Part shown: positions 166 to 19,468 of the stretch, piece after piece
Numbering within the stretch: the stretch's first letter is position 1
Layout: every line of letters starts with the position of its first letter
NCBI GenBank assembly: GCA_036001065.1
Contig: DASYUQ010000167.1
Span: 1 to 47,197, forward strand
DNA: 47,197 nucleotides
Source of the DNA: Candidatus Methylomirabilota bacterium
GTDB taxonomy: Bacteria > Methylomirabilota > Methylomirabilia > Rokubacteriales > CSP1-6
Direction of reading: 5' to 3'
Notes under the pieces: generated by a model
What the model was told of the DNA's origin: nothing
Seen by the model: only the letters and a program-made list of their open reading frames with translations
The model's database searches: none
Translations under genes and position numbers: made by a program

Positions 166-255
166 CTAGTGCCGTTCCAACTATTCGCGCCTAGGAAGGC
201 ACCGTGTACGTCGTTCGTGGACAGATTTAGTATCAACAAGTTGGAACGGCACTAG
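166..255. repeat. 90-bp palindrome-ended repeat, copy 1 (MITE-like)
   Basis: The ends are a perfect 17-bp inverted repeat: CTAGTGCCGTTCCAACT at 166-182 and its reverse complement at 239-255. The copies at 11481-11570 and 17438-17527 are identical to it over all 90 bases. It lies in the gap between the partial plus-strand gene and the convergent ABC binding-protein gene. CTA at one edge and TAG at the other match an insertion into CTAG with TA duplication, the known target habit of IS630. The element carries no gene of its own. Confidence 0.9.
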
Positions 256-1916: not shown

Positions 1917-1941
1917 GTGAGCCCCCTTTCTTCTCCGACCG

Positions 1942-2826: not shown

Positions 2827-2962
2827 AGGTCGGAGGGGGCGACTTCACAGGCGCGCCCCCCGGGCGCGACGGCCCCCTCCCAGGCCTCCCCCAGCCCAGG
2901 TTGCGCCGGCGACGCCGGCGCTCGAGGAAGGGCGCGGGACTCTTGGATTGACACAGGATGTC

Positions 2963-3868
2963 TCATGCCGCCCTCGCCTCGCGGTGGCGCTGGACTCTGA
3001 GGAAGATCAGGGTCAGGATGAGCACCCCCAGGACGATCAGGTACGACAGCGCCGAGGCGTAGCTCATCCGAAAGTCGTTGAAGCCCACCAGGTAGGTGTT
3101 GAAGGCCAGCGTCTCGGTGGACCCGCCCGGCCCCCCGTAGGTGAGGATGAAGATCAGGCCGAAGAGCTTGGTCAGGTCGATCATCCGGATCATCACCGCC
3201 ACGGCCATGGTGAACTTGAGCAGCGGCAGCGTGATGAACCAGAAGCTCTGCCAGGGCGTGGCCCCGTCCGCCTTGCCGGCGTCGTAGAGCTCCTGGGGGA
3301 TCGACTGTAAGCCGGCGAGCAGGACGAGCATCATGAACGGCGTGTTGTGCCAGATCTCGACCAGCACCACCGCCACCGTGGCGATGAACGGCGAGGAGAA
3401 CCAGTCGAAGTAGACGTCGATGATGCCGGCCTGCCGTCCAAGGTTGTTGATGGCGCCGTATTTCACGCCGAACATCATCCGCCAGGCCATGGCCGCCATG
3501 ACCGGCGAGACCATCGGGGGGATGGCCAGGAGCGCGGTGAGGATCGGGCGGGCGCGGATAGGACGGTTGAGGAGGAGCGCGATTCCGAGCCCGAAGAGCA
3601 GCTCGAGCGCGAGCGATGGGGCGATGATGACCGCGGTGTTCCAGACCGAACCCCAGAACCGCGCGTCGCGGAACAGGGCCTCCGTGTAGTTCCGGAGGCC
3701 GACGAACTCGTAGTCGGGGCCGACCGAGAGGTCGAAGTTCTGCAGCGAGAGATAGAAGGCGTACAGCAGGGGGAAGACGATGACCAGCGCGATCAGAAAC
3801 AGCGACGGCGAGGCGAACGCCAGCGGCTCCCACTGCTTGCGCTTCAGGGCGAAGGCGGATCCCCGCAT
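2963..3868 (-). CDS. ABC transporter permease, MalF/UgpA-like (carbohydrate type)
   Basis: A 301-residue inner-membrane protein with a cytoplasmic N-terminus (MRGSAFALKRKQWE), then a first transmembrane helix and the conserved YAFYLSLQNFDL segment of the UgpA/MalF group. The EAA loop reads QELYDAGKADGATPWQSFW near residues 192-210. With the downstream MalG-like permease and binding protein it forms a carbohydrate importer. A 136-bp gap separates the two permeases and holds nothing recognisable. No ATPase gene accompanies them, so energy presumably comes from a shared MalK-type subunit encoded elsewhere (inference). Confidence 0.9.
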   Translation of the reverse strand: MRGSAFALKRKQWEPLAFASPSLFLIALVIVFPLLYAFYLSLQNFDLSVGPDYEFVGLRNYTEALFRDARFWGSVWNTAVIIAPSLALELLFGLGIALLLNRPIRARPILTALLAIPPMVSPVMAAMAWRMMFGVKYGAINNLGRQAGIIDVYFDWFSSPFIATVAVVLVEIWHNTPFMMLVLLAGLQSIPQELYDAGKADGATPWQSFWFITLPLLKFTMAVAVMIRMIDLTKLFGLIFILTYGGPGGSTETLAFNTYLVGFNDFRMSYASALSYLIVLGVLILTLIFLRVQRHREARAA

Positions 3869-3959
3869 GAGCCTCCCTCGGGGCGGCTTCGGGCCCCGCT
3901 CGGACGGTGCCGGGAGCAGACCACACGCGCCCGAGACCTGTCAAGCAAGGTCCCGGTTC

Positions 3960-4251
3960 TCACCCCGTCCAGGCGTACGTGCGCGCGGCCTTCTCGTTCA
4001 GCTCCGTCCCCCAGCCCGGAGCGGTGGGGATCTTCATGTGGCCGTCCTTGATCTCCGGCAGCGCCGTGAAGAGCTCGTCGCGGAGGGGGACCGCGTCGGG
4101 ATCGCTCTCCATGATCTGCACGTTCGAGACGGCGGCGCACAGGTTCAGGTTCTGGAACGCCCTCGTCGGTGCGGATCGCGCAGAAGAGCCAGGGGCGCGG
4201 CGGCTTGAAGCCGGTGTCGACGGCGAACGTCTCGATGTGCGTGACCTTCAC
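3960..4251 (-). pseudogene. collapsed enolase-superfamily (MR/MLE-type) sugar-acid dehydratase gene
   Basis: Starting at GTG 4251, the minus strand encodes KVTHIETFAVDTGF and PRPWLFCAIRTDEG, the typical first strands of mandelate racemase/galactonate dehydratase-like proteins. At about 4158 the frame shifts and continues directly into FQNLNLCAAVSNVQIMES, then PTAPGWGTELNEKA, ending at TGA 3960-3962. That is the characteristic C-terminal tail of the same family. About 95 codons remain of a family usually near 370-400, so the catalytic barrel has been lost by an internal deletion. It heads the carbohydrate ABC operon, where an intact copy would make sense as the catabolic partner. An in-frame ATG at 4284 is an alternative start. 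Confidence 0.75.
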
Positions 4252-4356
4252 GCGGAACCTCCGGTGGTGCCGGGAGAACACCATAGGCGCCGGGGCGTGT
4301 CAAGGCTTCCTGAACTGGAGGGAGTGCCCTTCGGCGAGCGGTCCATGGGGCTCGAG

Positions 4357-4377
4357 CGATGTATGTTACGATGTATG
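4357..4377 (+). promoter_or_regulatory. tandem 9-bp direct repeat before the antitoxin gene (candidate operator)
   Basis: CGATGTATG occurs twice, at 4357-4365 and 4369-4377, separated by TTA, so the copies are 12 bp apart. It ends 4 bp before the antitoxin ATG. Tandem half-sites about one helical turn apart are typical of ribbon-helix-helix autorepressors. The function is inferred from position. Confidence 0.45.
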
Positions 4378-4381
4378 CGCA

Positions 4382-4636
4382 ATGGCCCGAATGATCCGCA
4401 AGCAAGTTTACATCGTGGCTCACCATGACCGCGTGCTCAAGGAGCGGGCCCGTCAGGACGGCGTCACCGAGGCCGAACTGATCCGTCGAAGCCTCGACCG
4501 GCTCGCCGCGGGCCCTGGCCCGGCCCCGGACCCGACGGCGTGGCAGGCGGTCGTGCGGTACGTCGCCCGGCGGCGGAAGCCGGCCAGCCGGGTCACGAGG
4601 CGGCGCTGGACGCGGAGCCAGCTCCATGATCGCTGA
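4382..4636 (+). CDS. antitoxin of a VapBC-type pair (ribbon-helix-helix-like)
   Basis: A protein of 84 residues with N-terminus MARMIRKQVYIVAHHDRVLK, then GVTEAELIRRSLDRL. A short strand followed by two helices is the pattern of CopG/RHH antitoxins, and the C-terminus is basic and proline-rich. The start at 4382 puts the conserved strand at the N-terminus; the frame is open further upstream but without homologous content. There is no clear Shine-Dalgarno, so it may be leaderless or weakly initiated. It overlaps the PIN-domain toxin by 11 bp, the usual translational coupling, and should neutralise the toxin and repress its own promoter through the direct repeat just upstream. Confidence 0.75.
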   Translation: MARMIRKQVYIVAHHDRVLKERARQDGVTEAELIRRSLDRLAAGPGPAPDPTAWQAVVRYVARRRKPASRVTRRRWTRSQLHDR

Positions 4637-5078
4637 GGTCCTCATCGACACCAACGTGCTGGTGTACGCCTACGACGGCCGCGAGCCACGGAAGCAGGCC
4701 CGGGCGCTGGAGACGCTGGGGCCTCTGGTCGCGACCGGTCGGGGCGTCCTCTCCGCGCAGGTGCTGGGCGAGTGGTACCGTGCCGTCACCCGGAAGCTGC
4801 GTCCAGCGCTGAGCTCGGCCGATGCCGCCTCGCAGGCGGCCGCGCTGCTGCGCGCGTGGCGGGTGTTCCCGGTGACGCCGCTCGTCGTCCTCGAGGCCAC
4901 GCGTGGAGCCCGGGACCACCGCCTGGACTACTGGGATGCCCAGATCTGGGCGACGGCTCGTCTCAACCAGGTCTCTGTGGTGCTCAGCGAGGACTTCGCG
5001 GACGGGCGGACCCTCGAAGGTGTGCGGTTCCGCGATCCATTCGCCCGATCTTTCACGTCCGCTGAACTGGGGATCTGA
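4626..5078 (+). CDS. vapC: PIN-domain ribonuclease toxin, VapC family
   Basis: A 150-residue PIN-domain protein. The acidic residues expected to hold Mg2+ are present: Asp8 in LIDTNVLVYAYD, Glu49 in QVLGEWYRAV, Asp104 in DYWDAQIWA and Asp123 in LSEDF. VapC toxins cleave RNA, commonly tRNA or rRNA sites, when released from the cognate antitoxin. It is encoded immediately after and overlapping the RHH antitoxin. Length and motif spacing are normal and the gene looks intact. The RNA target cannot be predicted. Confidence 0.88.
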   Translation: MIAEVLIDTNVLVYAYDGREPRKQARALETLGPLVATGRGVLSAQVLGEWYRAVTRKLRPALSSADAASQAAALLRAWRVFPVTPLVVLEATRGARDHRLDYWDAQIWATARLNQVSVVLSEDFADGRTLEGVRFRDPFARSFTSAELGI

Positions 5079-5097
5079 CGAAGCCCGGCGCCAGCCG

Positions 5098-5625
5098 GTG
5101 ATCTGGACGATCGGGCACGGCACGCGGTCGCTCGACGAGCTCGTCGAGCTGCTGCGCGCCCACGGCGTGACGCAGCTGGTGGACGTCCGCACCATCCCGC
5201 GCTCCCGGCGCAATCCGCAGTTCAACCGGGAGACGCTTCCCGAGAGTCTCGGCGCCGCCGGCATCGCGTACGCGCACATGCCGGGGCTGGGCGGGCTGCG
5301 CCGCCCGCGTCCCGATTCGGTCAACGGGGGGTGGCGGAACCAGGGCTTTAGGGGCTACGCCGACTACATGCAGACGCCCGAGTTCGCGAAGAACCTGGAA
5401 GCGCTCGTCGCCCTGAGCCGTCGCCGGTCCACCGCCATCATGTGCGCGGAGACGGTGCCCTGGCGCTGCCACCGCTCCCTCGTCGCGGACGCGCTGACGG
5501 TGCGCGGCCTTCCCGTCGAGCACATCGTGAGCGCCGGGCCGGCCGCGCCCCACGCGCTCACGGCCTGGGCGCAGGTGGAGGGCACGACCCTCACGTATCC
5601 GGCGAGCGGTCGCCCGCCGGCCTAG
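5098..5625 (+). CDS. DUF488 family protein
   Basis: A protein of 175 residues if translated from GTG 5098, the last start before the conserved IWTIGHGTRSLDELVELL opening. It shows the DUF488 hallmarks: TIGHG, LVDVRTIPRSRRNPQF, YAHMPGLGG, and a Cys pair in IMCAETVPWRCHRSL. The family's biochemical role is not established; members are often annotated as conserved hypothetical proteins. It starts 20 bp after the toxin gene and may be read from the same transcript, but a functional link is not implied. The upstream open frame overlapping the toxin gene is a shadow. Confidence 0.85.
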   Translation: MIWTIGHGTRSLDELVELLRAHGVTQLVDVRTIPRSRRNPQFNRETLPESLGAAGIAYAHMPGLGGLRRPRPDSVNGGWRNQGFRGYADYMQTPEFAKNLEALVALSRRRSTAIMCAETVPWRCHRSLVADALTVRGLPVEHIVSAGPAAPHALTAWAQVEGTTLTYPASGRPPA

Positions 5626-5697
5626 CGCCTCTTTCCTTTGGCCGGCGCCCGGAGTACAAGTTGGGCCCGGCGACTCCGCCGGGAGGAGACCACCGAC

Positions 5698-6792
5698 GTG
5701 GCCGGACTGCTGACCGTTGCCGAGCCCCAGGCGCCCGCCGTGGCGACGCGCAGCCGGATGCTCTTCGTGGATGCGCTGCGTGGCGTCGCGCTGATCCTGA
5801 TGGTGATCAACCACACGTCGCGCTGGTGGATGGACGTCTCCATGGGCTGGGGGCGCTATTACCTGGTCTACGGATCGGTGACGCTGCCGGCGGCGATCTT
5901 CCTGTTCCTGGTCGGCTTCTGCCTGCCCATCTCCTTCGGCCACCTGACAGCGGCCGAGCGCTCCGCCCCCTGGCCGGTCCTCGGCAAGTACGTCGGACGG
6001 GGTCTGGTGATCATCCTGAACGGCCTTCTCCTGAATCTCCTGGTCTTCCCGGAAGACCCGATCTGGAGCGGCGGCGTGTTACAGACGATCGGCCTCAGCA
6101 TCATCGTGCTGGCGCCGGCCCTCTGGCTCGGACGCTTCCCGGCGGCACGCTACGGGCTGCTGGCGGTGGCCGCGCTGTTCTATCTCTCGTTCGTCTGGGC
6201 GTACGCCGACCTGAGCGCGTGGCTCACCCACCATCCGCTGGTCGCCAAGATCTGGTTCCTCGACTTCGCGCCGTGGCCGTGGATCAGCATGGCGCTGATC
6301 GGCCTCGTCGCCGGCTGGCGGTGGCTCGAGGCGCGCGGGCGCGGCGAGCGGGAGGAGCGGCGGTATTTCTGGATCGTCGGCCTGGTGGGCCTCGCCTGCG
6401 TCGCCGCCTTCTTCGCCTACGACTGGTGGATGCAGACGAGCCCGCGCGTCTCGTTCAGGCGCGATTTCCTCCTCAACCGTCACTGGATCCCCCGGGGCGC
6501 CACCACCCTCTGGGTGCTGGGCATGCTGGGCGGCCTGCTGGCGGCGACGTACTGGCTAATGGAGGTGAAGAAGCGCCCGCTCGCGTGGCTGGTGGTCCTC
6601 GGCCAGACCGCGCTGATGCTCTACTTCGTCCATCAACTCATCGTGCTGACCCTGATCAATCAGTACCTGGGTCTGCGCTTCAACCACTGGGGGCTCTACT
6701 GGCTGGCCAATGCCGCTCTGATGGTCGCGCTGGTGTACCTGGGCCAGGCCTGGCTGGAGATCAAGCGCGTCGCTCGCCGGCTCCGGCGGTGA
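5698..6792 (+). CDS. multi-pass membrane acyltransferase-like protein (DUF1624/heparan-alpha-glucosaminide N-acetyltransferase type)
   Basis: A protein of 364 residues. GTG 5698 is preceded by GGGAGGAG at good spacing, so it is preferred over an in-frame TTG 60 bp upstream. The opening RMLFVDALRGVALILMVINHTSRWWMD carries the Arg-Gly and the NHT histidine of the membrane acyltransferase group related to DUF1624/HGSNAT. About nine or ten hydrophobic helices follow, with FLFLVGFCLPISFG, LNGLLLNLLVF and a C-terminal LMLYFVHQLIVLTLI segment. Such proteins transfer acyl groups onto sugars or other acceptors at the membrane; donor and acceptor are unknown here. The downstream neighbour is a gene-poor region. 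Confidence 0.75.
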   Translation: MAGLLTVAEPQAPAVATRSRMLFVDALRGVALILMVINHTSRWWMDVSMGWGRYYLVYGSVTLPAAIFLFLVGFCLPISFGHLTAAERSAPWPVLGKYVGRGLVIILNGLLLNLLVFPEDPIWSGGVLQTIGLSIIVLAPALWLGRFPAARYGLLAVAALFYLSFVWAYADLSAWLTHHPLVAKIWFLDFAPWPWISMALIGLVAGWRWLEARGRGEREERRYFWIVGLVGLACVAAFFAYDWWMQTSPRVSFRRDFLLNRHWIPRGATTLWVLGMLGGLLAATYWLMEVKKRPLAWLVVLGQTALMLYFVHQLIVLTLINQYLGLRFNHWGLYWLANAALMVALVYLGQAWLEIKRVARRLRR

Positions 6793-7037
6793 CCGCGGAG
6801 GAGGAGACGATGGCAGGGCTGGAGGGCAACGAACAACCTAGGGAGTCTCGGGCACCACCTGCGGCGGGCGGCGCTCGGGCGCGCGAGCGTCCGAGAGAGC
6901 ACCCTCATGCCCTGGCCGTTCACGATCTCGCACTCGTGGGTCGTTCGGCTCGTCGGCATCGCCCGCATCTTGGCGACCGTGAGCGCGTGCCGGAAGGTAT
7001 CGCCCAGCTGCTTCGTTTGCCCGCATCAAATGCGTGT

Positions 7038-7059
7038 GCGCGCGCCTCCAGGCGCGCGC
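7038..7059. other. GC-rich hairpin
   Basis: GCGCGCGCC at 7038-7046 pairs perfectly with GGCGCGCGC at 7051-7059 across the loop TCCA. No T-run follows on either side, so it is not a classic terminator. It lies about 110 bp from the DnaA-box pair. Confidence 0.6.
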
Positions 7060-7170
7060 GAGCCCGTCGAATGGGAGAATTCTTGCGCCGGTCCTCGCGG
7101 TGGATGAATAGACCGTCGCTTTTGGCGACCACGACCGCGAGACCGCGTCACGCCGTGCAATTCTGACGCC

Positions 7171-7197
7171 TGTGGATAACTGTGAAAATGTGGACAA
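7171..7197 (+). promoter_or_regulatory. two DnaA-box-like motifs
   Basis: TGTGGATAA at 7171-7179 is the exact complement of the consensus DnaA box TTATCCACA. TGTGGACAA at 7189-7197 differs at one base. Both have the same orientation and start 18 bp apart, in an unusually AT-rich patch for this window. Binding by DnaA is inferred from the motif only. No dnaA, dnaN, gyrB or rpmH gene is nearby. Confidence 0.5.
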
Positions 7198-7211
7198 GAT
7201 GTGGGTGCGTG

Positions 7212-7319
7212 TTACGCGGAGGTTGCCCGCCGCGTCGTCTTGCCGCACTCGCTCGGCCCCAGCAGGGTCAGGATCGCCCCCTTCTCCACGCCGAAGGTGA
7301 CCCGCGCGGCCAACCCCGG
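7212..7319 (-). pseudogene. fragment of an ABC transporter ATP-binding protein (Walker A region)
   Basis: The minus strand reads LAARVTFGVEKGAILTLLG followed by PSECGKTT, then three to six unrelated residues and TAA at 7212-7214. This is the strand before the Walker A loop and the loop itself, with Glu replacing the usual third-position Gly of GPSGCGKTT. Everything upstream of that strand and all downstream motifs (Q-loop, signature, Walker B) are missing. It begins right at the stop codon of the aldo/keto reductase gene, so it is probably the remnant of the ATPase gene of that transport operon. Confidence 0.7.
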
Positions 7320-7321
7320 GC

Positions 7322-8329
7322 TTACGACACCGCACCGACGCTGGGGAGCTGCCTCCAGAGGGCGGAGAGACGGTCCAGCGCCGGTCCCGGGAGCGGACCT
7401 TTCGCCACGCAGGCGGCGGCGTACTCGAGATGCTCGAGGCTCGAGTATCCGAGCAACACCGTGGAGATCCCCTCGGTGCCCACGGCCAGGCGCAGCGACG
7501 CCTCCACCAGGCTCTCCACGTGTCCTTCCCGCACGAGCGCGCCGAGCATCTGCGCGCGCCGCACGTCGCTGGCGTAGTCGGGCCCCGAGGCGATCGGCTC
7601 CACCTTGGGCGCCGCGATCGGGTGGCGGGCGGGGGAGCCGCTCAGCGCGCCAGCCGCGGCCACGCGGATGGCGATCACTCCCATCCCCTGCGCCTTCGTG
7701 CGCCGGAGGAGACCGCGGAAGTCCTGGGCCGGGAACCCCGCGGGCACCTCCAGGCCGGCGCTGGGATTGAGCAGGTTGTAGCAGACCTGCGCCGTGTCCA
7801 GCACGCCCGCATCGATCACGCGGTGCAAGGCCTCGGTCTCCCCGAGCGCGGTGATGCCGTAGAAGCGGATCTTGCCCTGCTGCCGGAGCTTGTCGAGCGC
7901 GGGGACGACGGCGCCCAGCAACATCCGAGCGTCGATGTCGCCGTCACGTCGCTCGAGCACGATGCGGTTGTGGAGCTGCAGGAGGTCGACCCCCTCGAGA
8001 CCGAGCCGCTGGAGACTCGCCTCCAGCGAGCGGGCGACGGCGCCGGCGATGTTCTCGACGGGCCCGGGATCCAGGCGGAACTTGGTGCCCACGTACACGG
8101 GAGCCTTCACGGCCTTGAGCGCCTGGCCCAGGTGACGCTCGGACAAGCCGTCGCCGTACGAGGGGGCGGTGTCGAAGTAGTTGATGCCGAGCTCGACCGC
8201 CCGGGCGACGGCGCGCTCCCGTTCCGCGGGCGTGCCGCGAACCATGAGCCCGCCGACGTTGCCGCAGCCGAAGCCCAGCGCCGAGACCTTGAGGCCCGTC
8301 TTTCCGAGAGTTCGATAGTCCATCGCCAT
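7322..8329 (-). CDS. aldo/keto reductase
   Basis: A protein of 335 residues from ATG 8329, which is 5 bp after the stop of the preceding gene. A second ATG lies two codons in. The AKR catalytic tetrad is visible: Asp53 and Tyr58 in INYFDTAPSYGDG, Lys83 in YVGTKFRL and His120 in VDLLQLHNR. The C-terminal third contains the NADP(H)-binding pattern STVLLGYSSLEHLEYA. This family reduces carbonyls, or oxidises sugars (aldose dehydrogenase-like), in the cytoplasm. It follows two solute-binding protein genes in one operon, suggesting a role in metabolising the imported compound, which is unknown. Confidence 0.88.
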   Translation of the reverse strand: MAMDYRTLGKTGLKVSALGFGCGNVGGLMVRGTPAERERAVARAVELGINYFDTAPSYGDGLSERHLGQALKAVKAPVYVGTKFRLDPGPVENIAGAVARSLEASLQRLGLEGVDLLQLHNRIVLERRDGDIDARMLLGAVVPALDKLRQQGKIRFYGITALGETEALHRVIDAGVLDTAQVCYNLLNPSAGLEVPAGFPAQDFRGLLRRTKAQGMGVIAIRVAAAGALSGSPARHPIAAPKVEPIASGPDYASDVRRAQMLGALVREGHVESLVEASLRLAVGTEGISTVLLGYSSLEHLEYAAACVAKGPLPGPALDRLSALWRQLPSVGAVS

Positions 8330-8334
8330 CGTCC

Positions 8335-9306
8335 CTAAGGCTGGAGCAGACCGATCTCGCGCAGGTACCGCCGCACGCCCGGGTGGATCAGCTCGGGGCG
8401 CGGCGCCGCCGCCACCGTGTTGGCGGCCGTCGTCTCGCGCGCCTGGGGCAAACGCGCGGCCAGCGCCGCCTGGCCGCGGTGGAGCGCCCGCGCCAGCCGG
8501 TGCGCGAGCTCGTCCGGCAGCGTGGGGCGCGCCATGATGAAGCTCCAGGATCCCACCGACACGATCGGCGTGTCCTGACCCGGATAGGAGCCGGCCGGAA
8601 CCGTCATCACCTTGAGGAAGGGGTGCCTGGCCTGGATGCGCTTGATGCCGTCCGCGTCCGGCGCGATGAAGCGCGCGCCGGCGGGCCCACGGGCGACCAG
8701 CGCGAACCCCGGCCAGCCGACGCCGGCGCCCCACAGCGCCGTGACGCGCCCGTCCATCACCAGCTTCGGTCCGTCGGCCGCCTGGTCCAGGAACACCGCC
8801 TGGAAGTCCCGCTGCTGGTCGAGGCCGAGCCCGTCCAGGACGTACCGCGCGAGGATGACGAGCCCCGAGCCGCGGGCGCCGAAGGCGACGGGCTGGCCCG
8901 TGAGGTTCCCGATCGTGCGCGCCGGCGAGTCGCCGCGAACGACGAACATGCCCGGCGAGGAGTACATGGCGGCGAGGATCAGGAGGTTCGCCGGCGGCCG
9001 GCCGATGCTGCTCAGAGCCTCGTGGGCCACCTCGCCCTGCACGAGGGCGATGTCGAGCTGCCCAGCCTCCAGGAGCGGCACGTTCTCGGTGCTCCCCTTG
9101 GTGTGGCGTGTCTGGACGTCCAGCGTGGGATCGATCTCGTTGATGCTCGCGGCCACGGCGTTGCCGTACACGGGAAAGCCGCCGCCCGGCGTGGCGGTCC
9201 CGAGGCTGACGACGTCCTTCTGGGCCTGAGCGGCGGTGGCGCTCATCTGGCGTACCGTATCACACCACGCCGCCGCCGGGCTCGTCAGCGGCGCGAGGGC
9301 CGTCAC
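8335..9306 (-). CDS. TAXI-type solute-binding protein (TRAP-transporter associated)
   Basis: A protein of 323 residues from GTG 9306, overlapping the upstream stop as GTGA. The sequence carries the TAXI pattern: LGTATPGGGFPVYGNAVA near residue 37, TKGSTENVPLLEAGQLDIALVQ, and the PVAFGARGSG segment. An AAQAQ site near residue 29 looks like a signal-peptide cleavage point, but the hydrophobic core before it is weak, so export is uncertain. TAXI proteins normally feed a fused TRAP membrane subunit, and none is present here. Its neighbours are an NMT1-like binding protein and an aldo/keto reductase. It may be an orphan binding protein or a sensor. Confidence 0.8.
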   Translation of the reverse strand: MTALAPLTSPAAAWCDTVRQMSATAAQAQKDVVSLGTATPGGGFPVYGNAVAASINEIDPTLDVQTRHTKGSTENVPLLEAGQLDIALVQGEVAHEALSSIGRPPANLLILAAMYSSPGMFVVRGDSPARTIGNLTGQPVAFGARGSGLVILARYVLDGLGLDQQRDFQAVFLDQAADGPKLVMDGRVTALWGAGVGWPGFALVARGPAGARFIAPDADGIKRIQARHPFLKVMTVPAGSYPGQDTPIVSVGSWSFIMARPTLPDELAHRLARALHRGQAALAARLPQARETTAANTVAAAPRPELIHPGVRRYLREIGLLQP

Positions 9307-10187
9307 GCGAGCGTCATCGTCAGGGCCTCGTAGCGCCGGTCCCGGATGTGCCCGGTCAGGCCCCACGACTCCGCGAACCTGATCGCCTCCTCGAACTCCG
9401 CGTGCGTGTACGGCTCGAAGAACAGCAGCTCGCCCAGGCCGAAGGTACCGTAGTCGTAGTCGCCGCGCAGCTCCGGCGGCACGTTGCGCACCCACAGGTG
9501 CAGATGCTTGCCGGGATGGGCCCGCAGCTCGTCGTCGGCCCGCCGGAGCGCGCGGAAGTACGCCGTGAGGATGCCTGGCTCGAGCCGCTCGTGGACCCAG
9601 AAGAGCGTCTTGAACTCCGCCAGCGCCAGCTTGCGCAGCCCGCGTATCTCGGCGATCGGGATCTCGGGGTCCAGCAGCGTGGCGGCCTCGAGCTCGCCGG
9701 CCAGCAGCCCCAGCAGGCGGCGTCCCGGCCCGCCGTAGTTGTGGATGACGATCTGATCGCGGGGCAGGACCTTCTCCAGCGTCTGCAGCGTGGTGAAGTG
9801 GCTGCCGGCCATGATGCCCACGCCCACCGGAACGCCGCGCAGATCGCTGAGCCGCGCCCGCGCCGATCCCGGCCGCACGTAGATCCCGAAGCGCGCCACG
9901 CCGTACACGTCAGGCACGAACTTGCCCATGCCGGCGCCGGCGTTGCAGACGCTTCCCCAGTGACACGCAGAGTTGGCGACCAGGGTGCCCTCGACGAAGG
10001 GCTTGTCTTGCGGCCGGGTCTTGTAGGCGTCGCCCCGGTGCCCGCTCACGCGGTGCATGACGTCGTCGAGCAGCTCGGGCTCGAGCCCCTCGGCCTCGAA
10101 GTAGCCCTCCTCCAGCGCGATCCACTCCTGGAGCCGCATGAAGTGCGGAACGATCTTGACCCGCGTGCGTTCGGCCTGCCGCGTCAT
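9303..10187 (-). CDS. NMT1/THI5-like ABC substrate-binding protein lacking a signal peptide
   Basis: A 294-residue protein beginning TRQAERTRVKIVPHFMRLQEW, then ALEEGYFEAEGLEPELLDD, the typical opening of NMT1/THI5 or nitrate/taurine-type binding proteins (GYFxxEGL). The segment SDLRGVPVGVGIMAGSHFTT matches the conserved 'L-G-k-vGv' strand. No hydrophobic signal peptide is present and a start further upstream is not available, so it may act in the cytoplasm or be exported unconventionally. It is the first gene of the operon with the TAXI-like protein and the aldo/keto reductase. The ligand is unknown. Confidence 0.75.
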   Translation of the reverse strand: MTRQAERTRVKIVPHFMRLQEWIALEEGYFEAEGLEPELLDDVMHRVSGHRGDAYKTRPQDKPFVEGTLVANSACHWGSVCNAGAGMGKFVPDVYGVARFGIYVRPGSARARLSDLRGVPVGVGIMAGSHFTTLQTLEKVLPRDQIVIHNYGGPGRRLLGLLAGELEAATLLDPEIPIAEIRGLRKLALAEFKTLFWVHERLEPGILTAYFRALRRADDELRAHPGKHLHLWVRNVPPELRGDYDYGTFGLGELLFFEPYTHAEFEEAIRFAESWGLTGHIRDRRYEALTMTLA

Positions 10188-10220
10188 GGCGTGCCCTCCT
10201 GAGCCGCGCCAGATCTTATC

Positions 10221-10241
10221 CTAGTGCCGTTCCGGCACTAG
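10221..10241. repeat. 21-bp collapsed derivative of the 90-bp repeat
   Basis: CTAGTGCCG, loop TTC, CGGCACTAG forms a perfect 9-bp stem. It equals the first 13 bases of the 90-bp element joined to its last 8, so it looks like a copy that lost its 69-bp interior. It lies in the divergent gap between the NMT1-like gene and the SDR gene. Confidence 0.75.
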
Positions 10242-10297
10242 GCGGGGGTTCCCGCGCGGCGGCAAGACGTCGGCCCCAAGAGGTGAGGTGAGCACGA

Positions 10298-11023
10298 GTG
10301 CCTGAGCCGAAGAGTTCCGAACGACCACCCGTCGCGCTGATCACGGGCGCGGGTCGCGGGATCGGGCGCGCGACGGCCGAGGCCTTCGCCCGCGAGGGCT
10401 ACGCCGTCTCCCTCGCCGAGCTGCGTCCGACGCTGGGCCTGCGCACCGAGCGGGCGCTCCGGAGGGCCGGCGCGACCGCGATGTTCCTTCGAACCGATGT
10501 CGCCGATCCCGTGTCGGTCCAGCGGACGGTGCGCGCGGTACTCCGCCGCTGGGGCCGGCTCGACTGTGTGGTGAACAACGCGGGAGTGCTGCGAGCCGGG
10601 CCGCTGGCGACCCTACCGCTGCGTGCGCTCGAGCGGACGCTCGCCGTGAACCTTCGCGGTCCCCTGGTCGTCAGCCGTGCGGCGCTTCCCGCGATGCTCC
10701 GCCAAGGCACCGGCGCCATCGTCAACGTCGCCTCGCTCCTCGGCAAGACCGGGATGGCCGACTTCGCCGTGTACTGCGCCAGCAAGTTCGGCGTCGTCGG
10801 GTTCACCGAGGCGCTCGCCGAAGAGCTCGCCGGCACCGGCGTGCGCGTCTGGGCCGTGTGCCCGGGGCTGGTGGACACCGAGATGGCTCGCCGAGCCGTC
10901 GGCGTCAGCGGCCGTCAGCGGGCGGGGCTGATCAGGCCCGAGTCGGTCGCGCGCGTGATCGTTGATCTCGCGACGGGCCACCGGCGCGCCCCCAGGGGCG
11001 CAGCGGTCGATGTCACCCGCTGA
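10298..11023 (+). CDS. short-chain dehydrogenase/reductase (classical SDR)
   Basis: A protein of 241 residues from GTG 10298, preceded by GAGGTGAGGTGAG. Rossmann-fold motif TGAGRGIG lies at residues 16-23, NNAG at 93-96, the catalytic Ser at 146 (VNVASLLG) and Tyr159/Lys163 in YCASKFG. The C-terminal CPGLVDTEMA loop is typical. It should be an NAD(P)-dependent oxidoreductase of the cytoplasm. Substrate cannot be predicted. It stands alone, divergent from the operon on its left, with a possible terminator hairpin about 30 bp after its stop. Confidence 0.92.
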   Translation: MPEPKSSERPPVALITGAGRGIGRATAEAFAREGYAVSLAELRPTLGLRTERALRRAGATAMFLRTDVADPVSVQRTVRAVLRRWGRLDCVVNNAGVLRAGPLATLPLRALERTLAVNLRGPLVVSRAALPAMLRQGTGAIVNVASLLGKTGMADFAVYCASKFGVVGFTEALAEELAGTGVRVWAVCPGLVDTEMARRAVGVSGRQRAGLIRPESVARVIVDLATGHRRAPRGAAVDVTR

Positions 11024-11051
11024 TGAGCTCTTCGCCACCGGGCCAAACTGA

Positions 11052-11072
11052 GCCCAGGACAGACGCCTGGGC
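11052..11072 (+). terminator. hairpin after the SDR gene
   Basis: GCCCAGG at 11052-11058 pairs with CCTGGGC at 11066-11072 around a 7-nt loop, 28 bp after the SDR stop. There is no T-tract, so it is at best a weak or Rho-assisted terminator. Confidence 0.4.
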
Positions 11073-11184
11073 AGGCCCTCACACGGTCTCACGCGACAGA
11101 GGCAAGGGCTAACCGGAGCGTTCGGCGTATCGCGTCAGCGCGGGTCTGGAACTGATGCTGGATTAGGGGTTCCAGACGTGTAAA

Positions 11185-11421
11185 ATGTGGGCTCTGATGA
11201 AAAGACCGGTCGCCACGAAGCCTAAGGTGGTGCCGCTCTGGCGCGCCCGGGCGCACCGCCCCCCAACCGGCGGATGTGCCAAGTGCGGCAGCACCTACGT
11301 CGCGCGCGAGCCGGCGTTCATCCACTGCCGCTTCTGCGGCAGCCTGAGCCGCATCCCGAACGGATCGCTGCTCGACCAGGAGGTCTTCGAGATCCGCTCC
11401 GGTCTTCGCCTCGCATCCTAG
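11185..11421 (+). CDS. small zinc-ribbon protein, function unknown
   Basis: A protein of 78 residues (74 if the internal ATG at 11197 is used). Cys31-x2-Cys34 and Cys48-x2-Cys51 in CAKCGSTY and FIHCRFCGS form a four-cysteine zinc-ribbon knuckle pair, which argues for a real gene. The N-terminus is basic (KRPVATKPKVVPLWRARAH), suggesting nucleic-acid contact. The first copy of a clear neighbour on the same strand is 257 bp downstream, beyond the repeat. No specific family is recognised. Confidence 0.6.
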   Translation: MWALMKRPVATKPKVVPLWRARAHRPPTGGCAKCGSTYVAREPAFIHCRFCGSLSRIPNGSLLDQEVFEIRSGLRLAS

Positions 11422-11480
11422 TCGCCCCCCGACCCCGCACTTCCGTCCGCGGCCCCTTTGACCATGCCGTCGTCTGCCGC

Positions 11481-11570
11481 CTAGTGCCGTTCCAACTATT
11501 CGCGCCTAGGAAGGCACCGTGTACGTCGTTCGTGGACAGATTTAGTATCAACAAGTTGGAACGGCACTAG
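11481..11570. repeat. 90-bp palindrome-ended repeat, copy 2 (MITE-like)
   Basis: Identical in all 90 positions to the copy at 166-255, with the same orientation. It begins 59 bp after the zinc-ribbon gene and ends about 107 bp before the dehydrogenase start. Its flanks (GCCGC left, ACTTA right) share nothing with copy 1 outside CTA/TAG, so the repeat ends where stated. Confidence 0.9.
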
Positions 11571-11677
11571 ACTTACCGCATCCATGATCGATTCCATCCA
11601 TCACCTTCGAGGCGATGCAAACGGGCGGCGGGACGAAAATCTCCTGAGGCGTCAGGATCATCAGAGCGGAGGCGAAC

Positions 11678-12571
11678 ATGCGCATTGCATTCATCGGACT
11701 GGGAAACATGGGTGGGCCGATGGCCCTGAACTTGATGAAGGCCGGCCACAGCCTCGTCGTTCACGACGTCCGCAAGGAGACGGCGGCGCCTCACCTGGAG
11801 CGCGGCGCCACGTGGGCCGACAGCCCGCGGGCCGCCGCGCAGGATGTCGAGCTGATCCTGACGTCGCTCCCGGGCCCCCCGGAGGTGGAAGCCGTCGCGC
11901 TCGGGGAAAACGGCATCATCCACGGCGCCGCACCGGGGGCCGTTTACGCCGATCTCTCCACCGGGTCGCCGAGCCTCATCCGCCGCATTCATGCTCTCTT
12001 CAAGGCGAAAGGCGTCCACATGCTCGACGCGCCGGTGAGCGGCGGCGTGTGGGGCGCCCGGAGTGGCAAGCTGCAGGTGATGGTCGGCGGCGACGAGAAG
12101 CTCTTCCGGCAGATCAAGCCCGCTCTGGAGGCGATCGGCGACAAGGTCGGCCTGATGGGCGGCATCGGCTGCGGGACGATCGCCAAGCTCGTCCACAACA
12201 TGATCGGGATCTGCACGCGGCAGGTGGTCGCCGAGGCTTTCACCCTGGGCGTCAAGGCCGGGGTGCGTCCGGAGGCGCTGCTGGCCGCCGTCAAGGGCGG
12301 GTCGTTCGGTCAGGGACTGCTGCTCACGCAGGTGCTGCCCGAGATCGTCTTCAAGGGCGACTTCGATACCGTCCGCTTCGCGCTGCGCCTGGCCCGCAAG
12401 GACCTGGGGCTCGCGACCGAGCTGGCCCGGGAGTGCAACGTGCCGATGGAGATGGCGGCGCTGGCCGAGCAGACTCTGGTGGAGGCCCTGGCCCGTGGCT
12501 GGGGCGACAAAGACTTCTCGGCGCCCTTCATGATTCAGGAGGAGCGGGCCGGCGTCCGAGTGCGCACGTAG
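11678..12571 (+). CDS. NAD(P)-dependent beta-hydroxyacid dehydrogenase (3-hydroxyisobutyrate dehydrogenase family)
   Basis: A 297-residue protein with the N-terminal Rossmann motif GLGNMG at residues 7-12, the substrate-binding DAPVSGG loop at 117-123 and the catalytic Lys170 with Asn174 in AKLVHNM. These define the HIBADH/tartronate-semialdehyde reductase family, which oxidises 3-hydroxy acids. GCGGAGGCG precedes the ATG at a good distance. A small inverted repeat (TCCTGA, GGCG, TCAGGA at 11641-11656) sits in the leader and may be an operator. The gene converges with the small gene on the other strand, with stops 21 bp apart. The exact substrate is not deducible. Confidence 0.92.
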   Translation: MRIAFIGLGNMGGPMALNLMKAGHSLVVHDVRKETAAPHLERGATWADSPRAAAQDVELILTSLPGPPEVEAVALGENGIIHGAAPGAVYADLSTGSPSLIRRIHALFKAKGVHMLDAPVSGGVWGARSGKLQVMVGGDEKLFRQIKPALEAIGDKVGLMGGIGCGTIAKLVHNMIGICTRQVVAEAFTLGVKAGVRPEALLAAVKGGSFGQGLLLTQVLPEIVFKGDFDTVRFALRLARKDLGLATELARECNVPMEMAALAEQTLVEALARGWGDKDFSAPFMIQEERAGVRVRT

Positions 12572-12592
12572 GACTCACGTTACCGGCTGCCC

Positions 12593-12805
12593 TCAGATAA
12601 GCCACGGGTCGTCGCTCGGCGTCTCCGGCAGTTGGATGGGCGGAGGCTCGGCAGGCTCCACGGACAGAATCGCGAGGTCGAGCTGCTCCAGCTTTTCACG
12701 AAGCTCGCCCAGGGCTCCGTCGATTTTGTCGTCGGGCAGGAGCATCGCCTGCGTCTCGACGGTCGCCTGGATCTTGATCCGCCTGAAGGTAGGCATAGTA
12801 GGCAT
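12593..12805 (-). CDS. small conserved-looking protein, function unknown
   Basis: A protein of 70 residues from ATG 12805, with a very good Shine-Dalgarno (GGGGAGG) 8-10 bp upstream. That ribosome site selects this start; the longer open frame running into the permease gene is a shadow. The sequence has a strand (FRRIKIQATVETQAMLL), an amphipathic helix (KIDGALGELREKLEQLDLAIL) and an acidic, proline-rich tail (PAEPPPIQLPETPSDDPWLI). It is 167 bp downstream of the peptide-type ABC operon on the same strand. No domain is recognised. Confidence 0.55.
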   Translation of the reverse strand: MPTMPTFRRIKIQATVETQAMLLPDDKIDGALGELREKLEQLDLAILSVEPAEPPPIQLPETPSDDPWLI

Positions 12806-12972
12806 CGGGAAACCTCCCCTCCGAATGGGGGAGTCGCATATTCGATGCCTAACCCCTCGGCGGCAGATTGATGGCAATTCAAGGCCTTGCCGGACAAGAT
12901 CCCATGCGGCGTGCCAGAAAGGCCCAGCGTTCGATGCCATCCCGGCTCTCGGCCGCGTGCCTCCCAGCCGGG

Positions 12973-13800
12973 TCAGCGGTTTCTGAGCCGCGGGTTCAGC
13001 GCGTCGTTGAGGCCTTCGCCCAGGAGGTTGATCGCGAGCACCGTCATCAAGATGGCGACGCCGGGGATCGTGCAGAGCCACCAGGCGCTCCGGAGAAACG
13101 TCCGCCCGGCGCCGATCATGAAGCCCCAGCTCATCGTGTTCGGGTCGCCCAGCCCCAGGAAAGAGAGCGCGGACTCGATCAGGATCGCCGTGGCGACGAT
13201 GAGCGAGCCGGTGACGACGATGGGCGAGAGGCAGTTGGGCAGGATGTGGCGGAAGATCACCCGCGCGTCGCTCATGCCCAGGCCCACACACGCCTGCACG
13301 AACTCGCGGCTGCGCATGCCGAGGAACTCGCCGCGGACGAGGCGGGCCACCGGCGGCCAACTCACCACCGCGATGGCGATGACGATGCTCTTGATCGAGG
13401 GCGTGATGATCGCCACCAGCAGGATCGCGAAGAGGAACGTGGGGATGGTCTGGAAGAACTCCGTCGCCCGCATGAGGACGTCGTCGACCGAGCCCCCGTA
13501 GTAGCCGGCGCAGCCCCCGATCAGTGTGCCGAGGAGGACGGCGACGGCCGTGGCCAGCACGCCGATCATCAGCGACGTCCGCGCGCCGTGCGCGATGCCC
13601 GCCGCCACGTCGCGCCCGAGCTGGTCGGTGCCGAAGAGGCGCTCGCCGAAGGGCGCCAGGAAGGGTCGGTCGACCTGGCGGAAGGGGCTTCCCGGGAAGG
13701 CGACCGGGGCTGCCGCCGCCACCAGGACGATGAGCGCCAGGAGCGCCGTCCCGAAGATGGCGGCACGGCTCCGCGCGAAGCGGCGCCCGAACGCTCTCAT
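12973..13800 (-). CDS. peptide/nickel-type ABC transporter permease, DppC/OppC-like
   Basis: A 275-residue protein with an N-terminal transmembrane helix (FGTALLALIVLVAAAAPVAF) followed by the OppC-type HPFGTDxLGRD equivalent, here ERLFGTDQLGRDVAAGIAHG. The EAA loop reads EFVQACVGLGMSDARVIFR near residue 165. Six transmembrane helices are expected. It is the third gene of an operon with a family-5 binding protein and a DppB-like permease, spaced 16 bp from the latter. No OppD/OppF ATPase follows. Confidence 0.92.
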   Translation of the reverse strand: MRAFGRRFARSRAAIFGTALLALIVLVAAAAPVAFPGSPFRQVDRPFLAPFGERLFGTDQLGRDVAAGIAHGARTSLMIGVLATAVAVLLGTLIGGCAGYYGGSVDDVLMRATEFFQTIPTFLFAILLVAIITPSIKSIVIAIAVVSWPPVARLVRGEFLGMRSREFVQACVGLGMSDARVIFRHILPNCLSPIVVTGSLIVATAILIESALSFLGLGDPNTMSWGFMIGAGRTFLRSAWWLCTIPGVAILMTVLAINLLGEGLNDALNPRLRNR

Positions 13801-13816
13801 CGCCGCGCTCCCGCCT

Positions 13817-14803
13817 TCATCCGAGGTGGATCCGCGGATCGAGAAGCGTGTAGGTGAAGTCCACCGCGAGGTTGACGGCGATCACCAGGCAGGTCGAGAG
13901 GAGGAAGATCCCCATCAACAGATTGAGGTCGCGGGCGAAGAGCGACTGGAACGCCAGCAGGCCGAGGCCCGGCCAGGCGAAGACCGACTCCACGACGATC
14001 GAGCCGCCCAGCAGGCTCCCCACCTGCACGCCGGCCATGGTGACCACCGGGAGGATCGCGTTGCGCAGCACGTGGGCCAGGACGATCCGCCGCTCGCTGA
14101 GCCCCTTGGCCCGCGCCGTCGCCACGTAGTCCATCCCCGCCTGCTCCAGGATCGCCGCGCGCATCAGCCGCGTGTAGAGCGCCATGTAGAAGAGCGAGAG
14201 CGTGAGCGCCGGTAGCACCAGGTGGTGCGCGATGTCGAGGACGCGCCGCCAGCCCCCGTAGAACGCCGCCACCGTCTCCATCCCGCTGGTGGGAAACCAG
14301 CCGAGCCTGAGCGAGAAGACCACGATCAGCATCAGGCCGATCCAGAAGAGCGGTGTCGCGTAGGAGACCAGGGCCAGGACGGAGATGAGCGTGTCGCGCC
14401 AGCTGTGCACGCGCACCGTCGCCAGGAGCCCCAGCCCGATGCCGGCGCTCACCGAGAGCACGAGCGCGACGCCCATCAGCAGGAGCGTCGGCCCGAGGCG
14501 CGCCAGGATGAGGTCGAGCACCGGCATGCTGTGGCGGAAGGAGAAGCCGAGGTTCAGCGTGAGGACGTTCGTCACGTAGAGGACGAGCTGGGTGCCGAGC
14601 GGCCGGTCGAGGCCGAAGCGCGCGCGGAGCTGGGCCATGTACTCCGGCGAGGCGGAGCCGGCCTCGCCGGCCAGCACATCGGCGGCGTCGCCGGGCGCCA
14701 GGTGGAGCATGAAGAAGTTCAGGACGACGATCGTGAGCAGGACCGGTACCGCCTGCAACAGGCGCCGCAGGAGGTAGCTGGCGCGGCCGCGCCCCGCGCT
14801 CAT
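13817..14803 (-). CDS. peptide/nickel-type ABC transporter permease, DppB/OppB-like
   Basis: A protein of 328 residues if started at ATG 14803, which puts the conserved SYLLRRLLQAVPVLLTIVVL helix at the N-terminus as in DppB. The longer upstream frame is Pro/Arg-rich and unlike the family. LAPGDAADVLAGEAGS and RARFGLDRPLGTQ are standard OppB/DppB landmarks, and the EAA loop is DYVATARAKGLSERRIVLAH near residue 225. It forms the channel with the DppC-like partner 16 bp downstream. The 195-bp gap to the binding-protein gene is GC-rich and holds no gene. Confidence 0.92.
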   Translation of the reverse strand: MSAGRGRASYLLRRLLQAVPVLLTIVVLNFFMLHLAPGDAADVLAGEAGSASPEYMAQLRARFGLDRPLGTQLVLYVTNVLTLNLGFSFRHSMPVLDLILARLGPTLLLMGVALVLSVSAGIGLGLLATVRVHSWRDTLISVLALVSYATPLFWIGLMLIVVFSLRLGWFPTSGMETVAAFYGGWRRVLDIAHHLVLPALTLSLFYMALYTRLMRAAILEQAGMDYVATARAKGLSERRIVLAHVLRNAILPVVTMAGVQVGSLLGGSIVVESVFAWPGLGLLAFQSLFARDLNLLMGIFLLSTCLVIAVNLAVDFTYTLLDPRIHLG

Positions 14804-14998
14804 GCGCCGGGCCGCGGCGCGGGGAGGGCAGGGGGTGGCTCGACCACGAGGCCGGCGGCCATTTGTCGTGTCGCGGCTGGGCTCCATCTGGGGGGCAGGG
14901 GCGTGTGCTCGGGCGGCGGGAACGGGTCTCGCCACCCCTTGTTATCCCCGCGCCGCGGCCCCCCGCCCGGGCCACCGGTCATGCTCGGCGTGCCGCTT

Positions 14999-16600
14999 CT
15001 ACTTGTCGAGGTACGCCCGATCGAACGTGGTGTAGATGCCGAGCGGACTGACAATGAGGTCCTTGAACTGCTTGTGGTACACGGTGACGAAGTGGAGCTC
15101 GTGCACCCACACGATCGGCGCCGCCTCCACCACGAGCTGCTGGAACTCCTTGTAGAGCGCGGCGCGCTTCTTGGGGTTCTGCTCGACCGTCGCCTGGTCC
15201 ATGAGCTGGTCCGTCCGCGGCGACGACCAGCGGGTCAGGTTCACGAAGACCGTACCCGGCCGGATCTGGTTCGAGTGGTAGAGACGGTGGACGCCGATGA
15301 CCGGGTCGGCCAGGCCCTGGATCCAGTTGTTGGTGAGCTGGAAGTCGTAGTCGGTGTAGAGGCGGCGCAGCCAGGTGGGCACGTCCTCGTAGCGGAGCGT
15401 GGCCTTGATCCCGATCTCGGCCAGCACCTGCTGGACATATTCGCCGAAGCGCTGCCACTCCTCGCCGTAGGGCGTGAGATCGTGGACGATCTCGAAGCGG
15501 ACGCCGCCGGGGCCGCGCTTGAATCCGGCCTCGTCCAGGAGCTTGTTGGCGACCTCGATCCCGTTGGGCACGTGGTAGCTCTTCACCTCGGGCGTATAGA
15601 GGCCGGTGACGGCGAAGTTCGAGCTGATGGGACCGGTGGCCGGCTTGCCGAAGCCGAACCAGACGTTGTCGATGACGAACTGGCGGCTGATCGCGTAGGA
15701 GACGGCCTGGCGGACCTTCAGGTTGTCGAAAGGCGCGCGCCTGGTGTTGAAGTCGAGCTCGACGATGGGCGAGGACATCTCGTAGCCGCGCGTGGTGGCC
15801 GCGATGTGGGGCAACTTCTCCAGCGTCCGCACGTCGCTGTAGGGGATGGCGCCGAAGCCGCCGAGGTGGGCCTCGCCCTTCTCGATGGCCGCCGTCCGCG
15901 TCGCGGAGTCGGCCACGAAGCGGGCGACGATCCGGTCGAGATAGGGCCGCCCCTTCCGCCAATAGTCGGGGTTGCGGTCGAGCCGCATGTACTGCCCGCG
16001 CTGCCACTCGACGAACTTGAAGGGCCCGGTGCCGATGGGGGCGTTGGCGTACTTGCTGCTCTTGACGTCGGTGCCCTCGAACAGGTGCCGGGGGACGATC
16101 GGCGACTCGTAGCCCGAGAGCGCCATCATCAGGTAGGGCGCGGGATTCTGGAGCTTGAAGACGGCGGTGTGCTCGTCGGGCGTGTCGATGTCGGTGACGT
16201 CGCGGAAGGTGAGGGCTCCGCGCGGATGGACCTTCCGGAGCACCTCCAGCACGCTGAACTTCACGTCCGCGCTGGTGAAGGGCTTGCCGTCGTGGAAGCG
16301 TATGCCCTTCTGGAGCTTGAAGGTGATGGTCTTGCCGTCGCCGCCGACCTTCCAGGACTCCGCCAGGCCGGGGATGGGCTTCAGATTGAAGTCGTACTCG
16401 AGCAGCCCCTCGTATACTTTCGTCGCCACCTGGCCGATCGGGCCGGAGGTCGAGAGGTAGGCGGCCAGCGTGGGCGGCTCGGGCTGCACCAGCATGACGA
16501 GGGTGCCGCCGTGCTTCTGGGCCGAGGCGGCGTCGGGCAGGAGGAGGAGCCCCGCGACCGCTGTCAGCAGGGACGCTCGGACCAGTCGGGCGAACATCAT
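14999..16600 (-). CDS. ABC transporter substrate-binding protein, family 5 (peptide/nickel type)
   Basis: A protein of 533 residues with a signal peptide (residues 1-27, ending DAASA) followed by QKHGGTLVMLVQPEPPTL. The SBP_bac_5 signature region WKVGGDGKTITFKLQKGIRFHDGKPFTSADV is present near residue 85. It should deliver oligopeptides or similar solutes to the two permeases downstream. It is the first gene of the operon and faces the heme-oxygenase-fold gene across a 113-bp divergent intergenic region that must hold both promoters, though no clear -35/-10 is seen. Confidence 0.92.
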   Translation of the reverse strand: MMFARLVRASLLTAVAGLLLLPDAASAQKHGGTLVMLVQPEPPTLAAYLSTSGPIGQVATKVYEGLLEYDFNLKPIPGLAESWKVGGDGKTITFKLQKGIRFHDGKPFTSADVKFSVLEVLRKVHPRGALTFRDVTDIDTPDEHTAVFKLQNPAPYLMMALSGYESPIVPRHLFEGTDVKSSKYANAPIGTGPFKFVEWQRGQYMRLDRNPDYWRKGRPYLDRIVARFVADSATRTAAIEKGEAHLGGFGAIPYSDVRTLEKLPHIAATTRGYEMSSPIVELDFNTRRAPFDNLKVRQAVSYAISRQFVIDNVWFGFGKPATGPISSNFAVTGLYTPEVKSYHVPNGIEVANKLLDEAGFKRGPGGVRFEIVHDLTPYGEEWQRFGEYVQQVLAEIGIKATLRYEDVPTWLRRLYTDYDFQLTNNWIQGLADPVIGVHRLYHSNQIRPGTVFVNLTRWSSPRTDQLMDQATVEQNPKKRAALYKEFQQLVVEAAPIVWVHELHFVTVYHKQFKDLIVSPLGIYTTFDRAYLDK

Positions 16601-16713
16601 GTCGGCACCTCCATCAGGCGATTGTTGCCCGGCGACGCAGGCGTGATATTAGGTCAGCGCGGAGGGCCGGCGCAATGGAGACGACGGAGGGCGAAAGGGC
16701 AGGAGGACGGGGC

Positions 16714-17412: not shown

Positions 17413-17437
17413 GGCTGAGGGCGGGGGAGGGGCGAGG

Positions 17438-17527
17438 CTAGTGCCGTTCCAACTATTCGCGCCTAGGAAGGCACCGTGTACGTCGTTCGTGGACAGATTT
17501 AGTATCAACAAGTTGGAACGGCACTAG
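17438..17527. repeat. 90-bp palindrome-ended repeat, copy 3 (MITE-like)
   Basis: Identical in all 90 positions and in orientation to the copies at 166 and 11481. It begins 26 bp after the heme-oxygenase-fold gene. On the minus strand its outer CTAG supplies the stop codon (TAG, 17524-17526) of the small coding relic next to it. Confidence 0.9.
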
Positions 17528-17703
17528 ACGCGGATCAGCTGTAGACGCCGTACTCGACGCGATGGAGAACCTGGCACGGCGGGAATCGTCTCACCGCGAC
17601 GAACGAATGCCAAACGATAGCGAACGCCAGCCGGGCTGCGTGGCATTGCGGGGACTCTCCAGATCGCCAGCTCAACGATGCTACCCTCCTCGTCGATCAC
17701 CTT
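17524..17703 (-). pseudogene. truncated DUF6516-like small protein relic
   Basis: The minus strand reads KVIDEEGSIVELAIWRVP, then SPAGVRYRLAFVRRGE, a pattern like the first half of DUF6516 proteins (acidic turn, 'IVExxIWxVP', 'YRLxxV'). These proteins are found in toxin-antitoxin-like pairs. No start codon with context is visible. After RRGE the similarity stops, and the frame runs into the 90-bp repeat, whose edge provides the stop. The rest of the interval up to 17846 holds only the leader of the next gene. The family call rests on pattern memory, so it is tentative. Confidence 0.4.
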
Positions 17704-17846
17704 CTGGCCGGCCCCTCGGGTCCCATCGAGCGCGCGGCACCGAGTGCCACTTGACGTGGACCCTCTTTGGGCCAATCCTCTGGCGCACCAAGCGACTCGC
17801 GTGACATCCCACCCTCGGCGCCCGGCCCGGGGCAGGGGAGGACAAC

Positions 17847-19426: not shown

Positions 19427-19468
19427 GCCCCCCAGAGAAAGCGCGACCGTACTTCGGGGAGGTGTCAG

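Follow-up and report, generated by a model that had tools for sequence, protein, structure and literature searches.

A single 21-bp palindrome in a Methylomirabilota genome as a probable remnant of an abundant 90-bp MITE-like element

Bacterial MITEs of roughly the size considered here include MITEPsy1 of Pseudomonas syringae, an element of 100 nt which is thought to be derived from ISPsy2, a member of the IS5 family (PMC3189936). Shortened copies that keep their ends have also been described, and a review gives lengths of 39-400 bp for QMITE1 of Coxiella and 178-235 bp for Chunjie of Geobacter (PMC10969869). For ISY100, of the Tc1/mariner-IS630 group, cleavage is described at the 3' ends and, on the 5' side, 2 nt within the element, with insertion at TA and a normal TA duplication in 34 of 39 products (PMC2170065). 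Palindromes are described as forming hairpins during replication that are cut by SbcCD, in work that used palindromes of 460 bp, far longer than the parent element considered here (PMC4245961).

Here we analysed a stretch of 47,197 nucleotides from a Candidatus Methylomirabilota bacterium (hereafter, the window), which holds a 21-bp palindrome and three full copies of a 90-bp element. The three copies, found at 166..255 (copy 1), 11481..11570 (copy 2) and 17438..17527 (copy 3), are identical to each other, and none is assigned a strand. The element has perfect inverted ends of 17 bp and a CTAG at both borders, with 82 bp between the CTAGs. As single-stranded DNA the 90-mer folds at -24.2 kcal/mol (z -6.1) with all 17 of 17 end pairs formed, a stability reached in 0 of 200 shuffles. 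In its own genome of 4.46 Mb, CTAGTGCCG is followed by CGGCACTAG after 50-80 bases at 135 places, a count which is based on exact 9-bp ends and leaves out copies altered in these ends. Identity over the full 90 bp is seen in at least 40 copies, and a comparison by eye of 13 intact 90-bp loci shows flanks that are alike in nothing beyond the CTAG. This tetranucleotide is depleted in the window, with 22 observed occurrences versus 140 expected, and 11 of the observed 22 fall in the three elements and the 21-mer. The element is thus short and without coding capacity, with terminal inverted repeats and many dispersed, mostly near-identical copies and, judged from its sequence, is a MITE by structure.

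MITEPsy1, as described (PMC3189936), resembles this element in its length of ~100 bp, its ends of 17-18 bp, the lack of a gene and the presence of copies with identical ends, as well as in its target, CTAG (or YTAA), which is found on both sides of the inserted element. The two nevertheless differ in several respects: the MITEPsy1 end, GGAAGGTCTGAAAAAGCC, is unrelated to TGCCGTTCCAACT, the end of the 90-bp element, and its inverted repeat is imperfect; it is given as 6 copies in strain 1448A compared to the 135 exact-ended places found here; and a likely parent IS is known for MITEPsy1, while none is known for the 90-bp element (PMC3189936). A limited literature search yielded no published description that we recognised as matching the 90-bp element, and text matches to its 9-mer end were set aside as chance, judging by titles. 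The palindrome described below is likely a single decayed copy of a MITE-like family, which is a kind already known, in a family that this limited search matched to no named one.

The 90-mer had no match in 35 genomes of the same family, including the same-genus genome G001, and one genome of the family (G023) carries a single 15-base end. Outside the family, ends of the element were matched in 8 of 24 relatives from the order and class. Among the matches listed, G052, G050 and G057 hold many ends of the element, with different interiors. With 135 exact-ended places in one genome and no match in the 35 genomes of the family, while 8 of the 24 more distant relatives match the ends, the distribution looks like that of a recent burst, perhaps after horizontal arrival.

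Some variation was seen in the arrangement of the ends. Each end of copy 2 (11481-11570) forms a module of ~29 bp with a YTAG on its inner side too (CTAG...CTAG on the left, TTAG...CTAG on the right), and end modules of the same size recur in G052 and G057, even in tandem. The element's own genome includes one copy bordered by TTAG. When TTAG-bordered copies were compared in six genomes, the matches in G052 and G057 looked like one inherited composite subfamily and hence are not independent, and none were found in G050, G049 and G055. Tandem copies have one CTAG in common, both at C3 (113-202 and 199-288) and at L194. The tandem pairs at L194 (1501-1690, on C160) and on C93 (12585-12721) are alike in that the second copy uses the CTAG of the first and is truncated at its far end.

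Evidence on insertion comes from G001, whose collinearity with the window extends, with interruptions, from 453 to 19998. Where the window reads CCGC-CTAG-[element]-CTAG-ACTTACCG at copy 2, G001 reads CCAC-CTAA-ACTTACGG. The left flank of this copy matches G001 over 325 bp and the right flank over ~18 columns (15 identical), followed by 6.6 kb of other sequence. We regard this as a probable empty site with a single CTAA. The CTAG on both sides of the element and this one site with a single CTAA may reflect a target duplication, of either 4 bp (CTAG) or 2 bp (TA). A TA duplication inside the CTAG, similar to that of ISY100, would agree with these borders; the cleavage described for ISY100 (PMC2170065), however, would leave a short footprint, unlike the 13 bp found in the 21-mer. 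No Tc1/mariner-IS630 transposase could be linked to the ends of the element in the loci that were read by eye. Around copy 3 (17438-17743 of the window) the left flank equals that of G001 up to a CTAG, and the right flank matches G001 ~440 bp further on, such that this stretch is missing beside the element. A loss of this kind is what may be expected from recombination between two copies. Another dispersed repeat, of ~140 bp, is found at 2821-2970 of the window; G001 does not have it at this place, where the sequences corresponding to window positions 2825 and 2962 abut, and carries many stretches similar to it elsewhere.

No autonomous parent with the same ends was found in the element's own genome or in the loci inspected. 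In this genome, all 7 ends of the type TAGTGCCGTTCC without a G at position 34 are, by sequence, mutated or shortened copies of the MITE, in a screen that passes over any IS with a G at this position (as it did the 21-mer) or with diverged ends. At six loci with listed ORFs (L018, L021, L022, L037, L038 and L050), inspection by eye revealed no transposase. Two end pairs in G050, with ends 1-2 kb apart among the matches listed, were considered as the possible termini of an IS and rejected. In the first, on C217, an ORF that appears amidase-like by eye is situated between two separate short elements. In the second, on C79, the partner of the first end is only 169 bp away, and none was found for the far end. 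Plasmids gave two matches at E = 5. Viral contigs gave 79 stretches, among which a scan for partner ends with at most 3 mismatches returned two candidates: L204, where the pair is short (109 bp), and L235, where it is weak and its ends are in the wrong order.

The 21-mer, CTAGTGCCGTTCCGGCACTAG, is situated at 10221-10241 of the window, where the original prediction had placed a collapsed derivative of the element, and is not assigned a strand. It consists of CTAG, TGCCGTTCCGGCA and CTAG, and forms a palindrome with 9-bp arms and a TTC loop. It has a 13-base prefix and a 9-base suffix in common with the 90-bp element, which overlap in one C. The junction, counted from the outer CTAGs, can thus be read as 13+8, as originally proposed, or equally well as 12+9, with 69 bp of interior missing in either case. 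Because the 17-bp ends of the element are perfect inverted repeats, the match is the same in both directions and does not reveal which way round the parent copy lay. The stem is extended to 10 bp by pairing of C10220 with G10242, and the fold of the 21-mer, at -8.9 kcal/mol, was equalled in 0 of 200 shuffles. With arms of 9 bp instead of 17 and a single copy in the 4.46-Mb genome, the 21-mer lacks both the intact ends and the multiplied copies by which a MITE is recognised.

Could such a palindrome resemble the ends of the element merely by chance, for example as the binding site of a regulator? A location between divergent genes is a usual place for an operator, and palindromes with these 9-bp arms are also found in bacteria unrelated to this one: a wider contig collection contains at least 117 stretches with these arms versus ~112 expected from the size of the collection at equal base frequencies, indicating that the arms occur at chance level or above. 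Within the class, the pattern TAGTGCCGN{3,33}CGGCACTA matches 2 of 95 genomes, the element's own and G078, where the match is an unrelated 48-bp palindrome with other sequence. A control pattern, read backwards, matches 18 of the 95, the element's own genome included, and thus arms as long as these are no great rarity when the spacing is free. What makes chance unlikely is the spacing of 3 bases together with the match to the element's end over 13 bases. At the base composition of the genome, the number expected in 4.46 Mb is 1.6e-6 for the exact 21-mer and ~0.006 for the arms CTAGTGCCG...CGGCACTAG at a spacing of 0-30, or 0.02 for the arms when the density of hairpins in the window is used. 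The prediction had named relatives with the 21-bp palindrome but no 90-bp copies as a finding that would speak against derivation; the exact 21-mer was found in none of 94 other genomes of the class and is absent from the 117 same-arm matches listed from the wider collection. Since the 21-mer is single-copy and occurs in 0 of the 94 other class genomes, derivation from the element is strongly favored over chance, and we consider an unrelated palindrome to be highly improbable.

A tally of the long, short and intermediate forms, as suggested with the original prediction, shows how isolated the 21-mer is in length. Including it, 136 places have exact 9-bp ends, and the shortened forms known among them are of 76, 72 and 21 bp. 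Among the 50 of the 135 longer places that were listed, 49 are of 90 bp and one is of 72 bp; among the other 85, lengths of 79-89 and 91-98 bp may occur, and the fraction of 3 in 136 thus refers to those shortened copies that are known. Total lengths of 48-78 bp are found at two places, both within the 135, and total lengths of 18-47 bp at one, the 21-mer itself. The 76-bp copy (C160) lost 14 bp with a microhomology of 1 bp, the lost stretch having a small inner stem (GCCT-AGGA-AGGC), and the 72-bp copy (C51) lost 18 bp with no microhomology. According to these counts in the element's own genome, no exact-ended copies are 22-71 bp long and there is no graded series leading down to 21 bp. QMITE1, QMITE2 and Chunjie are like the 90-bp family in that shortened copies keep their inverted ends and direct repeats, but a large share of their copies is described as shortened, in contrast to the 3 of 136 known here, one of which is down to 21 bp (PMC10969869).

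Two further short forms were observed outside the element's own genome. In a Deltaproteobacteria MAG (L084, 7374-7405), CTAGTGCCGTTCCAAGCTTGGAACGGCACTAG is a perfect palindrome of 32 bp made of two nearly touching 15-base ends of the family, located just after an ORF. By its sequence it may be a second collapsed form of the family; by simple arithmetic, chance alone would give ~0.03 extensions of this kind in the 117 listed stretches. A short end remnant, CTAGTTGGTGCGGCACTAG, lies beside a full element at L044 of G055.

The 21-mer resides between two genes that point away from each other and are separated by 110 bp. The gene on its left (9303..10187, minus strand), whose start codon is 33 bp away, encodes 294 aa with no Pfam match at E<=0.001 and has a 96% identical protein in G001. 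The gene on its right (10298..11023, plus strand) encodes a short-chain dehydrogenase of 241 aa (PF00106) which G001 does not have at this place. The palindrome had been described as lying between two divergent promoters; the divergent genes are there, but no sigma-70-like promoter was found within 10100-10400. The same interval contains no terminator-like site on either strand, and hence no intrinsic terminator was recognised, and the window has no match in Rfam at gathering thresholds.

Whether a full copy once stood here was to be seen from an alignment with close relatives, and G001 does not show one. Homology with G001 runs through the left gene to 10206 and then ends, placing a break in synteny 14 bp to the left of the 21-mer; where the window has the short-chain dehydrogenase region (10207-11158), G001 has a gamma-glutamyltranspeptidase gene (PF01019). 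As G001 carries neither the 21-mer nor the 90-mer at this site and its neighboring genes differ, the comparison cannot say whether a full copy was present. The 21-mer may or may not be connected with this change in gene order. A link would be provided if the outer ends of two neighboring elements had been joined within their ends, with the DNA between them lost or exchanged. The break itself, directly at the 21-mer, is consistent with such a fusion, as is the position of a CTAG in G001, which contains the stop codon of the gamma-glutamyltranspeptidase gene and lies 12 bp past the end of homology, near the 14 bp at which the left CTAG of the 21-mer is found; copy 3, moreover, adjoins the place where ~440 bp of G001 are missing. 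Homologous exchange between copies, however, would be expected to produce a complete 90-mer, perhaps the case at copy 3, and there is no CTAG within 250 bp of the point near 11159 where the swapped block ends on its other side. Between the right flank of the 21-mer and the end of the gamma-glutamyltranspeptidase gene of G001 there is only a marginal match, equalled in 7 of 500 shuffles. We think a two-copy fusion unlikely, and equally, or very slightly more, doubtful is its fuller form, in which the 21-mer is an end-to-end fusion scar and the ends of the MITE helped to swap the gamma-glutamyltranspeptidase gene for the dehydrogenase gene.

Abortive excision by a transposase had been put forward as a possible origin of the 21-mer. 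According to this explanation, excision of the element was followed by trimming and rejoining of the broken ends, so that a part of both element ends stayed behind. The element indeed looks mobile, with at least 40 identical 90-bp copies and one probable empty site. Cut-and-paste elements, however, usually leave footprints of a few bases, while 13 bp remain between the two CTAG borders of the 21-mer, and within the position-34 screen the MITE is the only element found to carry these ends in the genome. This makes excision the weaker of the two mechanisms originally proposed, and we give it a slim chance. A technical origin, which we consider slightly slimmer still, is that a polymerase skipped the hairpin during library preparation or that the assembler misjoined the 90-bp repeat. 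The parent is a strong predicted hairpin, the assembly is fragmented into 239 contigs and several copies begin less than 400 bp from the start of a contig (C3, C19, C28, C48 and C79), but one 21-bp form stands against 135 longer exact-ended places, and random skipping would seldom win the consensus.

We propose that a 90-bp MITE-like element gave rise to the 21-mer by loss of 69 bp of its interior, a reading to which we assign a probability of roughly 0.68. It is supported by the match of 13+9 bases with a 1-bp overlap, by the 135 exact-ended places of the parent, three of them in the window, by the two other internally shortened copies in the genome, by the predicted fold of the 90-mer and by the precedent of QMITE1 and Chunjie, and the derivation as first predicted is well supported by this identity to the ends together with the absence of the 21-mer from the 94 other class genomes. 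Counting against it are the lack of a full copy at the site in any relative seen, the break in synteny with G001, the lack of forms of 22-71 bp and the matches of the backwards control in 18 of 95 genomes. While the identity to the ends, the single occurrence, the abundance of the parent, the shortened copies and the predicted hairpin are observed, we infer that a full copy stood exactly at 10221. The inverted ends of this copy would have paired as a hairpin or cruciform during replication, after which the polymerase may have skipped the stem, or the hairpin may have been cut and rejoined with the 1 bp of microhomology. Of the mechanisms first suggested, slipped replication on a cruciform is thus possible, as is processing of the hairpin, although a junction microhomology of 1 bp is weak for classical slippage between direct repeats. 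Because the two CTAG borders are still present, with 13 bp between them, a rare internal deletion in a hairpin-forming repeat, rather than a cut at the ends, fits best.

With much of the 17-bp end gone and no multiplication, the 21-mer is most likely an inert scar. It is a one-off event of ordinary genome wear, minor in itself. The family to which it belongs, in contrast, constitutes a natural experiment, with 135 exact-ended places and none detected in the congener, in which sites can be compared as filled, empty or collapsed. Such a comparison would make it possible to count, in a natural setting, how often short hairpins undergo deletion. If the fusion reading were true, the family would shape gene order not only by insertion, but also through joins at its ends. 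Overall, a short intergenic palindrome can be the debris of a transposon, and its reading as an operator needs a check first.
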